Shown piece after piece: positions 42,224 through 63,935 of a DNA stretch of 64,000 nt. Each line of letters starts with the position of its first letter. The stretch's first letter is position 1. A model generated the notes under the pieces. That model had not been told where the DNA came from and did not search any database. It saw nothing but the letters and a program-made list of their open reading frames with translations. The position numbers and the translations under genes were made by a program. This DNA comes from Methanoplanus limicola DSM 2279 (lineage in GTDB: Archaea > Halobacteriota > Methanomicrobia > Methanomicrobiales > Methanomicrobiaceae): assembly GCF_000243255.1 (NCBI RefSeq), contig NZ_CM001436.1, positions 470,077 through 534,076 on the forward strand. Reading direction: 5' to 3'.

Positions 42224-43414
42224 ATGAATAAAGCTGTAATGATCAGATACGGGGAGATATTCCTCAAAAGTGAATCAGTCCAGAGGCATTACCTCAGAAT
42301 ACTTGACAATAATATCAAAAACGCCCTCAAAACAGGTGGAATAGAGCACAGAATAGAGAGACACAGGGGCAGAATTTTAATCTACGGAGACAACCCTGAA
42401 GGAATTGTCAGCATAGTCACAAAAATATTCGGTGTCCTTGACGCCTGTATTGCTGAAGTTACAGAACCTGACAGGGAAATTCTCGAGAAAAAAGCTGCTG
42501 AGATCGCTGCAAAGTCATTAAGACCGGGAATGAGCTTTGCTGTAAGGCCAAAGAGGTCCAATATGAAAGGCTTTACAAGCCAGGAACTTGGTGCATCAAC
42601 AGGCGACAGGATATGGGAACTTGTCCCTGACTTAACAGTTGACCTTAAAAATCCTGATTACGAGATATTTGTCGAGGCAAGAACAGAGGGCGGCCTTATA
42701 TATGACAGAAGGATAAAAGGGCCGGCCGGACTTCCGGTTGGGACACAGGGGGAAGTCCTCTCGCTAATCTCCGCCGGGATCGACTCTCCGGTGGCCGCAT
42801 GGCTTGTCATGAGAAGGGGATGCACATCCTCGTTCATATTCTTCAGGGGAAAAGGATACTTTGGCAGAGATACTGAAGATGCAATGCTTGAAAATATGAA
42901 AAATCTTTCACAGTGGTGTCCGGGCAGAAAGATCAGACTTTATTCCATAGATCTGGAGGATTTCTACACCGAAATTCTGGATAAGATAACACCAAGGTAC
43001 CTCTGCCTTGTATGCAAGAGGTTTATGATGCACCTCTCATCACTCATCGCTGTCAGAAAAGGAATGTACGGCATTGTTATGGGCAACAACCTCGGACAGG
43101 TGGCCTCGCAGACACTTGCCAATATGGCGGTTACAGAAGAGATTGTCCCGCCCGGACTTCCGCTTCTTCAGCCTCTCCTGACGTGGGATAAAGAGGAGAT
43201 CGTTGACCTTGCAAGAAAGATCGGCACATTCAGGGAATTCGCAGGCGATCTTGACTGCTCAGTCGTCCCCAAACATCCGGCAGTCTCAGCTACAATTGCC
43301 GACCTTAAAGCAGAAGAGGAGAAACTGTATTATGCCACCCTCACAGAAAAATGCATGGAGTCCTTAGAAGAGATAAAAATAATGAATGGAGAGATTATCG
43401 ACTCAGATAACTGA
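42224..43414 (+). CDS. thiI: tRNA 4-thiouridine synthase ThiI (archaeal type)
   Basis: ThiI adenylates U8 of tRNA and adds sulfur. The N-terminal ~165 residues contain a THUMP domain; the PP-loop is SAGIDSPVAAWLVMRRG near residue 186. There is no rhodanese domain, as in other archaea. Three cysteines expected of archaeal ThiI (CLVCKRF near 266 and LDCSVVPKHP near 346) could hold an iron-sulfur cluster. A TATA-like TTATTAAAT lies about 33 nt before the ATG. Its stop overlaps the 3' end of the convergent SepCysS gene by 12 nt. Confidence 0.93.
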   Translation: MNKAVMIRYGEIFLKSESVQRHYLRILDNNIKNALKTGGIEHRIERHRGRILIYGDNPEGIVSIVTKIFGVLDACIAEVTEPDREILEKKAAEIAAKSLRPGMSFAVRPKRSNMKGFTSQELGASTGDRIWELVPDLTVDLKNPDYEIFVEARTEGGLIYDRRIKGPAGLPVGTQGEVLSLISAGIDSPVAAWLVMRRGCTSSFIFFRGKGYFGRDTEDAMLENMKNLSQWCPGRKIRLYSIDLEDFYTEILDKITPRYLCLVCKRFMMHLSSLIAVRKGMYGIVMGNNLGQVASQTLANMAVTEEIVPPGLPLLQPLLTWDKEEIVDLARKIGTFREFAGDLDCSVVPKHPAVSATIADLKAEEEKLYYATLTEKCMESLEEIKIMNGEIIDSDN

Positions 43415-44581
43415 GAGGCAATTATCCTCTGCAATCTCCCTGAAGGATGCTGCCACATGATCGGTCTGCTTCCTGGTAAGGCCGTATGTATTATACTTCC
43501 ATACCCTTGTCGAACCGGGGATAACACCTGTAATACCCCTCTTTTTCAGTTCACTGGAGAAGAAATATCCCCTCTTTTTATGGTTCTGTGCCACTTTGTC
43601 AAACGATTCTATGGTATTTATTCTTGTGAGGGTATGCTCCCTTGGACTGTCGCTCTGGCAGACTGTGCCCTCTATCGAAGTTAAGGCATCTGTGATTATC
43701 CTGCTGTGCTCAACCTCACGATCCCACTCAGTAACACGCTTCTGAACCTCCGGAAAAGATGCTATAAGGCCCATGACTGTCACGCCCATAAGAGTGCAGC
43801 CCATCATCTCAACCTCCTTTATGCCAAATGTCCGGCCGGTTACATCACCTTTGGCAGTGATTGTCCGGAAGACAACATCAGCATACTCCTCATTTGCCGC
43901 AAGAACACCTGACGGCGCAGGTGCTGCCATGCTCTTGTGACCTGACCCGACTATGAAATCAACACCGAGAGCTTTTCCGTCAACGGGCATAACTCCGACA
44001 GAATAGGCACCATTCAGCAGGACAGGAATGTCGTACTGATGTGCGGCCTTTACAATGCCCTTTATGTCGTGAATATTGCCATACTGGTAGTCCACATGCT
44101 CGACATAGAGCAGAGGGGGCGTCTTACCAAATTTTGCAATGACTTCCTCAATCCTCTCAGCCGCATTGTCACCGGTTATATGATTATTCTCATCCTTTGG
44201 GATCTCACACGGAATACCCCCGGACTGCTCAACAGATACAAACTCGGTATAATGTGACAGTGCTGTAAGAATCACAGGGTCACCCTTCTGAACGAGTGAG
44301 CTGGCAACTGCCTGAAAACCACGCCTTGCTCCGGGGACTACCCTCAGCTGGTCCATATTGAGCCATTTTGCACAGTCTTCATGAAACTCTGCAATAGGCG
44401 GCTTTCTGATATAATCAAGCCTGAACGGCTTTAAGCAGTTGTCACAGACCGAATACCCGTCTGAATAGGCAATAACAGCCTTCTGTGCCTCATTTGTCAG
44501 CCGGCCACCGGCCTGAATCGGATCTATATTGATATATAATTCCTCAACTTCCCTCGTATCAATACTGCCTGTGCACTTCAT
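43403..44581 (-). CDS. pscS: O-phospho-L-seryl-tRNA:Cys-tRNA synthase (SepCysS)
   Basis: SepCysS converts Sep-tRNA(Cys) to Cys-tRNA(Cys), the route by which many methanogens make cysteine. The fold-type I PLP lysine is in VGSGHKSMAAPAPSG (~residue 209), and the conserved cysteines are seen in SVCDNCLKPFRL (N-terminal) and EMMGCTLMG. At 392 aa it is full length. The ATG at 44581 overlaps the TGA stop of the 60-residue gene upstream (ATGA), which suggests the two proteins are made together. Confidence 0.93.
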   Translation of the reverse strand: MKCTGSIDTREVEELYINIDPIQAGGRLTNEAQKAVIAYSDGYSVCDNCLKPFRLDYIRKPPIAEFHEDCAKWLNMDQLRVVPGARRGFQAVASSLVQKGDPVILTALSHYTEFVSVEQSGGIPCEIPKDENNHITGDNAAERIEEVIAKFGKTPPLLYVEHVDYQYGNIHDIKGIVKAAHQYDIPVLLNGAYSVGVMPVDGKALGVDFIVGSGHKSMAAPAPSGVLAANEEYADVVFRTITAKGDVTGRTFGIKEVEMMGCTLMGVTVMGLIASFPEVQKRVTEWDREVEHSRIITDALTSIEGTVCQSDSPREHTLTRINTIESFDKVAQNHKKRGYFFSSELKKRGITGVIPGSTRVWKYNTYGLTRKQTDHVAASFREIAEDNCLSVI

Positions 44582-44760
44582 TTTAAGATCTCCTGCTCAA
44601 GGATTGAAACCTGTTTTTTCAGCTTTTCTATCGTTTTTTCGGCCTTCTGCCTCTCTGCCTCGTCAAAATCATGATCAGGAGCAGTCTTCCTGAAAAGAGA
44701 TCTGATATCGGTCAGAAGAAACAGAGCCTGAAATAATGCATCAACGGCTCTCTGCGACAT
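44578..44760 (-). CDS. 60-residue helical protein coupled to SepCysS; candidate short SepCysE
   Basis: The product is a probable two-helix protein: VDALFQALFLLTDIRSLFRK and a charged coiled-coil helix AEKTIEKLKKQVSILEQEIL. It shares a 4-nt overlap (ATGA) with SepCysS. In class I methanogens the adaptor SepCysE, about 200 aa, bridges SepRS, SepCysS and tRNA. This ORF could be a minimal version or only its interaction helix; that is inference from position. No ribosome site is striking before its ATG. Confidence 0.65.
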   Translation of the reverse strand: MSQRAVDALFQALFLLTDIRSLFRKTAPDHDFDEAERQKAEKTIEKLKKQVSILEQEILK

Positions 44761-44895
44761 AAATCCACCTGGTTAAACTAACTGCATATAATTGATTTTT
44801 GTCAATTAAAAAAGTGGCCTTATGAGGTATTTTATCAGAAAATTTATGACCAAAAATAAAACGATGAAATACTGTAAAAGATATAATTTTAATAA

Positions 44896-46716
44896 ATGAT
44901 TCCCGGATTTGGAAAATATGCCTCTATAAACAGAACGATACTCATCGGAATAATAATCGGGATTATTTCAGGATTTGGGGCATACCTGTTCTTTCAGGGA
45001 TTAAAATACGGCTCTTTATTTGTTTCGGAATATCTTCTCGGATATCATATGCCGCATGAAGGCGAGACCATCCGGATAATATCACAATGGTCTCCTCCGG
45101 CGACAATATGGCTCATTCTTCCGGTAATATGCACAGGTGCACTGATTTCGGGGTATATTGTGTACCGCTTCGCGCCTGAGGCAGAAGGGCATGGCACTGA
45201 CGCAGCAATTAAGGCCTTTCACAAAGGAAGCAAAGTCAGGTGGCGCGTCCCGGTTGTAAAGGCCATCGCCTCAATAATCACCATATCAAGCGGCGGAAGT
45301 GCCGGCAGGGAAGGTCCGACAGCACAGATCTCTGCAGGTTTTGGTTCAATTGCCGCAGATTTCCTGAACCTCTCTGAGAGGGAGAGAAGAATTGCTATCG
45401 CAACCGGAATTGGGGCAGGTATAGGTACAATATTTAAAGCACCTTTAGGCGGAGCAATTCTGGCGGCTGAAATCCTTTATACAAGAGACTTTGAGGCAGA
45501 TGCCATACTTCCGGCATTCATAGCATCAATAACAGGATATACTATATTTGGCTTTTTTGAAGGCTACAATCCTGTATTCGGCGAGGCAAAACTCTTCTGG
45601 GAACCTTCCCAGATACCCCTTTTCCTTATTCTGGGAATTATCTGCGCGGCATTTGGAGTTGCATATATCAGAACATTTTACGGGACAAGGAAAATATTCA
45701 GTGATTTTTTCATAAAGCACAATCTGCCGCCGTACTTAAAACCGGTTTTTGGGGCACTCATTATTGCATTATTGGTCATTGCAATGGCGCACATATCTCC
45801 GGATGCGATGATAACAGGACTTGCAAGTCTTGGAACAGGATATGGCTTTCTTCAGATTGCAATGTACAACCTGCTGCCACTCTCTGTCCTTTTATTCCTG
45901 CCGTTTACAAAGATCATCACAACATCACTTACAATCGGTTCAGGCGGGAGTGGCGGAGTCTTCGCCCCGGGACTTGCTGTAGGTGGTGCAGCAGGTGGAG
46001 CTTTCGGACTTATTCTCAATCTGGTATTCCCTGAGATTGTTCCTGTGGCATCCGTTCCGGCATTTGTGATAGTCGGTATGATTGCACTCTTTGGCAGTAT
46101 TGCAAATGCCCCAATCGCTGTGATGATCATGGTAACTGAGATGACAAGCGACTATTCTATACTTGTACCGGCTATGGGGGCTGTTGCGATCTCAACTATT
46201 CTGACAGGTGAGGATACAATATTTAAGGAACAGATTAGGACAAAGGCTGAATCAGAAGCACACAGAGAGGAATATCAGATAGAAATTCTTCAGAATATCA
46301 AAGCCTGTGAAGCAATGGTAAAACCCGAAGATCTTATAACCGTACATCCGGATGACTCATGCAGTGAAGTATACAGGATGATGAATGAAAACAGGCATAC
46401 CGGATTTCCGGTAACAGAAAACGGTCTGCTGACAGGGATAATAACACACAGAGATATCTCTCCTGAGAACGGGAAAATCCCATGCACGGATGTCCGGGAG
46501 AGGATGAAAAATGATCTTATAACTCTTTATGAAGAATCCACACTTGATAACGCCCTGTACCTGATGATGAAAAACAGCATACATCATATACCGGTGGTGG
46601 ATAAAAATAATGTAAAAGAGCTTAAGGGATTTATTACATCGACCAATATTATGCGGGCATATACTTCCGGAATGAGAGATATAAAAGTTGAATTGCAGAA
46701 AAAACAGCAACAATAA
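44896..46716 (+). CDS. ClC-family chloride channel/transporter with CBS pair
   Basis: A 606-residue protein: about ten membrane segments and the ClC selectivity motifs GSAGREGPTAQ with the gating Glu, GIGAGIGTIFKAPLGG, and GSGGSGGVFAPGLAVGG. The C-terminal ~140 residues hold two CBS domains (ITVHPDDSCSEVYRMM and ITLYEESTLDNALYLMM) that probably sense a nucleotide. It exchanges or conducts Cl- (or F-). It stands alone, divergent from the SepCysS unit. Confidence 0.92.
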   Translation: MIPGFGKYASINRTILIGIIIGIISGFGAYLFFQGLKYGSLFVSEYLLGYHMPHEGETIRIISQWSPPATIWLILPVICTGALISGYIVYRFAPEAEGHGTDAAIKAFHKGSKVRWRVPVVKAIASIITISSGGSAGREGPTAQISAGFGSIAADFLNLSERERRIAIATGIGAGIGTIFKAPLGGAILAAEILYTRDFEADAILPAFIASITGYTIFGFFEGYNPVFGEAKLFWEPSQIPLFLILGIICAAFGVAYIRTFYGTRKIFSDFFIKHNLPPYLKPVFGALIIALLVIAMAHISPDAMITGLASLGTGYGFLQIAMYNLLPLSVLLFLPFTKIITTSLTIGSGGSGGVFAPGLAVGGAAGGAFGLILNLVFPEIVPVASVPAFVIVGMIALFGSIANAPIAVMIMVTEMTSDYSILVPAMGAVAISTILTGEDTIFKEQIRTKAESEAHREEYQIEILQNIKACEAMVKPEDLITVHPDDSCSEVYRMMNENRHTGFPVTENGLLTGIITHRDISPENGKIPCTDVRERMKNDLITLYEESTLDNALYLMMKNSIHHIPVVDKNNVKELKGFITSTNIMRAYTSGMRDIKVELQKKQQQ

Positions 46717-61592: not shown

Positions 61593-61601
61593 AAAGGGAT
61601 A

Positions 61602-61674
61602 CGCCCAGTACGGAATTCGAATCCGTGTCGCAGCCGTGACAGGGCTGCATGATAGGCCACTACACTAACTGGGC
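61602..61674 (-). tRNA. tRNA-Asp (anticodon GTC), copy 1
   Basis: On the minus strand the acceptor stem GCCCAGT/ACTGGGC, the anticodon loop CTGTCAC (GTC) and the T-loop TTCGAAT are clear. Discriminator G; CCA not encoded. Identical over all 73 nt to two further copies in the window. Confidence 0.96.
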
Positions 61675-61814
61675 AGACTTATGCTTAAAATCAGCATAAT
61701 ATATTGAACATAAGAGTTATTTAAACATTTGATCTGGCATTGCTCCGGTCGCAGAAGGAATATGACCGGAAGAGGACAGAGATGCAGGGTAAAATGAAAT
61801 ATAATATTTAAATT

Positions 61815-62789
61815 TCAGTTCTCTTCAGAAATTCTGAAAAATATTCCGCGGTTCTCCCTTTTTTCTCTGATTCTTCCCTCTTCAATCAGAAGCTGGATAT
61901 ACTTGTTCACCTCATTTTTGTGCATCCCGAGAACGGATGAAAGGTCACCGGCAGTGCAGGGCCTGCGCCTTATCGTCTGCATGATCTGCTCCACTGCATC
62001 GCCGGAAAAACTGCCTATACCAGACCTTGACGATGGTCTGCCTGTTATCTCCGTTCCTTCGTAACCAAGACCTGCCGCAAATCTCTCCATCTCTTCAGGA
62101 GTTGCCGCCCTGATCCAGTCAACCACTCCGGGACGGTCAAGAGTATTGAGCTGAACCCTGTCAGGCGCAATCCTGTGCACTGCCTCCGACAGAGCAGCAA
62201 GTTCTTCTTCAGTATCGTTCAGTCCCGGAACAACAAATATTTCAAGCCAGATCTCACCGGAAAACTCCTTTCTAAGTTCTGCAAGCCCAAAGATTATCTC
62301 ATCAATCACTACTGAACTACACGGACGGTCAATCTTCATAAACCCTGCCTCTGTCGCAGAGTCAAGCGAAGGGATAATCACATCCATATCCATGACCTCA
62401 TCCCGGACACTCTTATCTGAAAAAAGACCGCCATTGGTTAGAAGAGCGATTCTGTAACCCGGAAATTTACTCTTTATGTAACGGCAGATCTCACCTGTAC
62501 CGCTGTGAAGCGTCGGCTCACCTGAGCCGGAAAATGTGATATAGTCAAGCCTGGGAGAAGCTGAAAGGTACGAGTCAAGCTCTTCTGTAACTTCTGCGGT
62601 GGGGACATACTCGCGCCTCTTTGCAGTAAGGGAGGTGGTCCTGCCGCATTCACAGTATATACAGTTGTAGTTGCATGTCTTCGGCGGTACAAGGTCTATC
62701 CCAAGAGATATTCCAAGCCTTCGCGAAGGAACAGGCCCGAAGAGATGCCTGTAATTATTAGCATTATTTGTATCGTTATTCATATGCAC
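61815..62789 (-). CDS. Radical SAM protein with C-terminal winged helix
   Basis: The radical SAM cluster motif is CNYNCIYC (CxxxCxxC, residues ~39-46), followed by YITFSGSGEPTL and the beta-strand elements IALLTNGGLF, of the COG0731-like type. The C-terminal ~70 residues form a winged HTH (RRPCTAGDLSSVLGMHKNEV), so DNA or RNA could be contacted. The reaction is unknown. The ATG and several Asn-rich residues at the start may be trimmed to a later in-frame Met. Confidence 0.87.
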   Translation of the reverse strand: MHMNNDTNNANNYRHLFGPVPSRRLGISLGIDLVPPKTCNYNCIYCECGRTTSLTAKRREYVPTAEVTEELDSYLSASPRLDYITFSGSGEPTLHSGTGEICRYIKSKFPGYRIALLTNGGLFSDKSVRDEVMDMDVIIPSLDSATEAGFMKIDRPCSSVVIDEIIFGLAELRKEFSGEIWLEIFVVPGLNDTEEELAALSEAVHRIAPDRVQLNTLDRPGVVDWIRAATPEEMERFAAGLGYEGTEITGRPSSRSGIGSFSGDAVEQIMQTIRRRPCTAGDLSSVLGMHKNEVNKYIQLLIEEGRIREKRENRGIFFRISEEN

Positions 62790-63020
62790 CGGCAGGGATC
62801 AATATTCACAATTGATGATAATTAAAGCATCCAAAATATCACATCACCAAAAAGGCCCTGATGACGGATGAAGCAGAGAGATGTATCACAGGAACTATCC
62901 ATAAACAGAAAAATCTGACTTTACACAGATTACAGACGTAATGCAGATGCATAGATCAGAAATTAAAGAGACTTTAAAATCCGGAGAAAATCTGCAAAAA
63001 TCGTGACAAAAAATATAATA

Positions 63021-63093
63021 CGCCCAGTACGGAATTCGAATCCGTGTCGCAGCCGTGACAGGGCTGCATGATAGGCCACTACACTAACTGGGC
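63021..63093 (-). tRNA. tRNA-Asp (anticodon GTC), copy 2
   Basis: Identical over all 73 nt to the gene at 61602-61674, with the same anticodon arm and T-loop. Flanking sequence matches only for two or three bases on either side. Confidence 0.96.
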
Positions 63094-63309
63094 AGTAAAG
63101 TAATTTTACCATACTAGATTGTCACAATAAACATTTTAACCCTTCGGTTTGGATATTTGTAAAGAATCAGGGAAAATGAAGAGATATTCAACGGTGCACA
63201 CTCAGGAGAAATTCCGGCAGGAAACAAAACCGGTAATGAACAGGAAAAAAAGAAAATATTCACGGGCATTTCAGACAGAATAAAATAATAATAGTGAAAA
63301 TACTGCATA

Positions 63310-63588
63310 ATGGAAGATGACGAGTCATACAGGCGCGCAAAGGAGAAGGTACAGGAGCTGAAGGGTTTTTATTCACATCTCTCAGCATACATCCTCGTGA
63401 ACATCATACTTATTCTGATAAATCTGATAACATCCCCGCAGTCACTCTGGTTCTACTGGATAACTCTCTTCTGGGGGATAGGTATACTGGTTCATGCATG
63501 GAACACATTTGGACACTGTAAAATCCTCGATAAGAACTGGGAAGATAAAAAAATAAAGGAATACATGGATAAGGAGAAGAAGAACTGA
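63310..63588 (+). CDS. 2TM-domain protein
   Basis: A 92-residue protein of the 2TM family: a basic helical start (RRAKEKVQELKGFYSHLSAY), then two membrane helices (ILVNIILILINLITS and WFYWITLFWGIGILVHAWNT), then NWEDKKIKEYMDKE. Such domains occur alone or fused to sensor proteins. It is a single gene between two tRNA-Asp copies. Confidence 0.85.
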   Translation: MEDDESYRRAKEKVQELKGFYSHLSAYILVNIILILINLITSPQSLWFYWITLFWGIGILVHAWNTFGHCKILDKNWEDKKIKEYMDKEKKN

Positions 63589-63846
63589 AAGGAATATTCA
63601 GAGGCAAATCAGATTATAATTAACAGAATATGAAGAATAATGAGATAATGATCAACTTTTAGCTGAAGGGAATACCGGAAAACTTCAGATTAACCTTCAT
63701 CCGTCTCCGGAAAAATAATAAGGAACTTTTTTTGCAGTCATCCGGGAACTTATCCGGGCGTCCGGATTATCATAACCGGATAAATCAGTATAAAGGTAAA
63801 TATTCACAGTTAAAACTTAAGAGAAATAATAAAACAAAAAGGGTTA

Positions 63847-63919
63847 CGCCCAGTACGGAATTCGAATCCGTGTCGCAGCCGTGACAGGGCTGCATGATAG
63901 GCCACTACACTAACTGGGC
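63847..63919 (-). tRNA. tRNA-Asp (anticodon GTC), copy 3
   Basis: A third identical copy. It lies 35 nt downstream (in transcription direction) of the partial tRNA at the window end, so the two are probably on one transcript. Confidence 0.96.
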
Positions 63920-63935
63920 AAAATTCAGACTCTTT

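Follow-up and report, generated by a model that had tools for sequence, protein, structure and literature searches.

The window (the whole 64,000-nucleotide stretch of Methanoplanus limicola DNA analysed here) carries a minus-strand gene for SepCysS, preceded by a small open reading frame (ORF) whose stop codon is interlocked with the SepCysS start codon. Mukai et al. (2017, mBio, PMC5424206) gave such short peptides the names SepCysSn, when split from SepCysS, and SepCysSN, when fused to it; the description is repeated in Mukai et al. 2022 (PMC8762117) and in a 2022 review (PMC9499178), and we adopt both names. The features at the locus are:

43403-44581, minus strand: SepCysS gene (TIGR02539, 402 bits against a cut-off of 365; NF006810, 587 bits; position in the SepCysS tree)
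44578-44581, minus strand: ATGA overlap of the SepCysSn stop and SepCysS start, read from the sequence; a 4-base overlap recurs in 68 of the best 80 loci
44578-44760, minus strand: SepCysSn ORF, 60 codons (60 amino acids), ATG start, TGA stop
44590-44594, minus strand: AGGAG, the likely ribosome-binding site of SepCysS, within the final SepCysSn codons and 8 bases 5' of the ATG
44765-44770, minus strand: AGGTGG, the probable SepCysSn ribosome-binding site, 4 bases 5' of the SepCysSn ATG

SepCysSn lies in a different frame from SepCysS and ends at its own stop codon, so the copy in the window is not fused. An earlier note, made from the sequence alone, had drawn attention to a 60-residue ORF sharing ATGA with SepCysS, and both the overlap and the identity of the downstream gene proved correct. 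At its other end, SepCysS meets a ThiI-like gene (assigned by eye; 42224-43414, plus strand) tail to tail with a 12-base overlap. A ThiI-like homologue occurs near SepCysS in 45 of the best 80 loci described below, 68 of which include at least 1500 bases downstream, and it is mostly convergent with SepCysS among the 40 matches listed. The divergent neighbour of SepCysSn appears by eye to encode a CLC chloride channel with CBS domains (44896-46716, plus strand), and no homologue of it was found in the best 80 loci. Elsewhere in the window, three tRNA-Asp(GTC) genes fall inside 2.3 kb (61601-63920, minus strand).

Conservation of the gene pair

A collection of ~84,980 species genomes was scanned using a SepCysS alignment, rather than the small ORF, as the query. 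The scan returned 531 confirmed relatives, of which the best 80 served as named loci; these are mostly from Methanomicrobiales (including Methanoculleus, Methanogenium, Methanomicrobium, Methanofollis, Methanocalculus, Methanoregula, Methanolinea, and Methanospirillum), with some Euryarchaeota bins and one delta-proteobacterial bin (L200). The small ORF is present immediately 5' of SepCysS in all 80 (profile E 1e-21 to 1e-33), bearing out the expectation that the gene pair would be conserved in the order. The junction between the genes is tight: besides the 68 loci with the 4-base overlap, five overlap by 1 base, one abuts, four are separated by 1 base and one by 2 bases, with the geometry of L180 left unscored. 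A Shine-Dalgarno (SD)-like tetramer sits at the same place 5' of SepCysS in all 79 scored loci of the best 80. Every one of the 469 SepCysSn pairs at moderate synonymous distance has a dN/dS below 1 (median 0.23); these pairs share sequences and are not independent. Five internal residues are invariant (D18, R20, R24, A27, and P28). A spurious ORF was considered and rejected on the strength of the 80/80 conservation and the median dN/dS. The ORF at 44578-44760 is a real gene, the first of a two-gene unit with SepCysS. Searches of Pfam and NCBIfam gave only chance-level matches, both for the window ORF and for 68 relatives.

Genome-level counts within the order agree with the locus survey. SepCysS was detected in 187 of 199 Methanomicrobiales genomes (E<=1e-40, hand count), and a profile of the split form matches 185 of these 187 (E 0.001, scored as presence anywhere in the genome). 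The remaining two (G117 and G169) carry the domain in fused form, so that all 187 have it, split or fused. Among the 12 genomes of the order without SepCysS, 11 also lack the domain and one (G044) has it. Across the phylum, a profile of mixed split and fused sequences matches 166 of 391 genomes, 98 in the order and 68 outside it (hand count).

The kind of peptide is not new, having been described in 2017 under the name SepCysSn (PMC5424206). What is new is a sharper statement of constancy, namely that across Methanomicrobiales the domain is constant with SepCysS, at 80 of 80 best loci and in 187 of 187 genomes. Methanomicrobiales were not found named for SepCysSn in the main texts of PMC5424206 and PMC8762117, whose figures or supplements may list the lineage; none of the genera of the order that were searched for is named in the main text of PMC5424206.

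Relationship of SepCysSn to SepCysE

The SepCysE of M. jannaschii (MJ1481) has three parts: residues 1-24 bind SepRS, 35-101 bind SepCysS, and 111-213 bind tRNA-Cys (PMC5688128). MJ1481 was the top match when the single SepCysSn sequence was searched against the PDB (E 0.44), and its score improved as relatives were added. A profile of 39 split relatives found it at E 0.0041 (next unrelated match 0.7), and a profile of 68 split members (the window plus 67 named relatives, near-copies having been dropped from the 80) placed it first among 177,635 PDB sequences at E 0.0018 (next unrelated match 1.0). Such values weigh more than their face value because SepCysE had been put forward before the searches, in the earlier note, which proposed a profile comparison with it. 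A 47-residue MJ1481 fragment scored 20.1 bits against the split profile (A4), a score matched by none of 2000 composition shuffles (best 8.9) and by far exceeding that of its reversal (-0.2). The SepCysSn profile and SepCysE also have in common an AP.H.L turn motif. The profile built from fused sequences only (A2) gave no SepCysE match in its PDB search, and the mixed split and fused profile (A5) ranked it first, yet at E 0.14.

Structure prediction points in the same direction. AlphaFold2 models SepCysSn as a pair of helices, at residues 3-26 and at 34-58 (mean pLDDT 96.4), as the description of a two-helix ORF had anticipated. With this model as the Foldseek query, ranks 1-5 of 350,542 chains are SepCysE at probability 1.00, with E-values of 0.13-0.26 and none below 0.001. 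VIA-align superposes SepCysSn 1-60 on SepCysE 42-100 (rmsd 1.9 over 59 residues, 22% identity) with Z of 8.0-8.1, values tied with those of unrelated helical hairpins, against a best Z of 8.7. The family-invariant R20 and R24 have no counterpart in MJ1481 in the SepCysSn alignments; therefore the interface must differ in part.

From these comparisons, in which the sequence E-values are modest, SepCysSn is a homologue of the domain by which SepCysE, near its N-terminus, binds SepCysS. The result gives a small uncharacterised family, with no Pfam or NCBIfam match above chance level, a secure identity and a partner against which it can be tested. The SepCysS-binding domain (SepCysE 35-101) is the part recovered by the profile, Foldseek, and VIA-align comparisons. 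The SepRS-binding N-helix (1-24) is absent: only four residues separate the upstream stop from M1 of SepCysSn, and residue 1 of the model aligns with MJ1481 residue 42. The tRNA-binding C-terminal domain (111-213) is likewise absent from the ORF, which ends at the equivalent of MJ1481 residue 100, after helix 2. Described earlier as a candidate minimal SepCysE, the peptide is indeed SepCysE-like, short, and coupled to SepCysS, but it corresponds to the middle domain only (MJ1481 42-100).

Split and fused forms

To place the window among its relatives, 101 SepCysS loci were compared: the window, 60 from the order, and 40 from elsewhere in the phylum, picked for spread over families and genera. 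The domain is a split ORF in 39 (the window included) and fused to the SepCysS N-terminus in 37, and 25 have no match (E <0.1); these 25 include L078, where the upstream sequence is masked, and L081, where the split gene is interrupted. Split and fused domains form one family (hhalign 98.7%, E 2.6e-16). When the 101 SepCysS proteins are placed on a tree, 78 domain carriers, counting L078 as unscored and L081 as split, and 23 proteins without the domain lie on opposite sides of a branch supported at 100%. One SepCysS clade carries the domain, and two other SepCysS types in the phylum do not. From the split or fused domain and an insertion near the active site, the SepCysS of the window probably falls in clade VII of Mukai et al.

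Split rows sit in two parts of the tree, one being the window's order and the other family f7. An AU test rejects a single origin of the split form (p 0.0019), which puts the number of origins of split genes at two or more. Because the outer branches in the carrier clade bear the fused form, the simplest and most likely reading, which depends on the rooting, is that a fused SepCysSN ancestor underwent fission, at least twice, to give the split gene. In genome G283 (G283:C130:11773-12675), a second, separate domain match in an 85-aa open frame is located ~560 bases before a fused copy.

The genome of the window itself contains both forms. A second SepCysS, with a fused domain, begins 16 bases after a tRNA-Cys gene (G000:C1:2554715 onward):

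L032:628-716 (G000:C1:2554627-2554715), in the window's own genome: tRNA-Cys(GCA), then fused SepCysSN-SepCysS

Of the 37 fused loci, 23 were scanned for a tRNA-Cys gene and 18 have one; of the 39 split loci, 10 were scanned and none has one. The presence of tRNA-Cys beside clade VII SepCysS was already reported by Mukai et al. 2017 (PMC5424206). In another genome, G155, the split SepCysSn (L219, G155:C1:90900-97000) is broken within helix 2 by inserted DNA with a 546-residue open frame that we take, by eye, for a transposase. The C-terminal SepCysSn remnant still overlaps SepCysS, and the genome retains a fused copy (L080) and has CysRS. This break, a single case, fits interchangeable roles of the split and fused forms.

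CysRS was matched in only 22 of 199 genomes of the order (E 1e-60), and in the genome of the window no CysRS score exceeded 31 bits against a cut-off of 340. Given that most genomes of the order are without a CysRS match, they probably have no means of making Cys-tRNA other than the SepCysSn/SepCysS pair.

Proposed role and comparison with known systems

We consider it likely that SepCysSn is a constitutive subunit on the SepCysS dimer, encoded by the first gene of a translationally coupled unit and forming no bridge to SepRS, the binding being argued from homology. Coupled translation would produce SepCysSn and SepCysS together, and SepCysSn would then bind the SepCysS dimer as the N-terminal domain dimer of SepCysE does in 3WKR, 3WKS, and 5X6B, stabilising or shaping the enzyme. 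Without an N-helix or C-terminal domain it would neither tether SepRS nor carry tRNA by itself. Retention of the same domain inside the SepCysS chain in the fused form, also in the genome of the window, counts in favour of the subunit model.

The earlier note saw in the ORF a missing short adaptor or a tRNA-channelling helix. That SepCysSn works as a minimal adaptor, joining SepRS to SepCysS and channelling Sep-tRNA, might be expected from homology to the N-terminal domain of SepCysE and from the SepRS encoded in the genome of the window (655 bits), but we regard this as very unlikely. Both terminal parts of SepCysE are missing, and deletion of the N-helix from SepCysE abolished SepRS binding in M. 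jannaschii, where the SepRS loops ILDEF, FNGE, and ALVSN hold that helix (PMC5688128). By eye, among four sequences, these docking loops read TPEGI, FCGM, and ALTGE in the genome of the window, and those of A. fulgidus SepRS (2DU3) are equally unlike M. jannaschii. The 2ODR SepRS, which we take to be that of M. maripaludis, retains VMDEI and AFVSN loops in the same comparison. Nor is SepCysSn basic, with 11 K+R against 11 D+E, and this balance makes a tRNA-binding role of its own unlikely. With no N-helix, no C-terminal domain, and unlike SepRS loops, a SepRS-SepCysS adaptor or tRNA-channelling helix is therefore unsupported.

That SepCysSn is a helical-hairpin partner of SepCysS with an independent origin, convergent with SepCysE, would accord with the modest sequence scores and with how common two-helix hairpins are; the first rank of SepCysE in both the PDB and Foldseek searches and the shared turn motif make it highly improbable. 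Least probable is that the ORF acts mainly in cis as a short coupling leader that positions the SepCysS start codon and its ribosome-binding site, for although the overlap is conserved and the near-invariant E57 sits where GAG forms part of the SD-like site in the final SepCysSn codons, the dN/dS of 0.23, the invariant internal residues, and the keeping of the domain as protein in the fused form all speak against it.

The subunit model for SepCysSn can be extended, more tentatively and at somewhat less than an even chance, to the whole SepCysS clade as a two-part enzyme in which the hairpin subunit is obligatory, in cis or in trans, without a SepRS tether. If so, an ancestral role in SepCysS itself, in the shape of the dimer, the entry of tRNA, or the transfer of sulfur, would be common to the class I SepCysE scaffold and SepCysSn, with the SepRS bridge as a distinct property. 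SepCysSn makes the function of the N-terminal domain testable without its tie to SepRS.

Among known systems, SepCysE (MJ1481; 3WKR, 3WKS, 5X6B, and 5X6C) has the fold and sequence of its SepCysS-binding domain in common with SepCysSn and differs in possessing a SepRS-binding N-helix and a tRNA-binding C-terminal domain, SepCysSn being C-terminally truncated and without either. The fused SepCysSN has the same domain in the same SepCysS clade, whereas the window copy is a separate gene in another frame. SepCysSn as described by Mukai et al. in 2017 is a separate gene directly 5' of SepCysS and C-terminally truncated relative to SepCysE, both of which are true of the ORF in the window.
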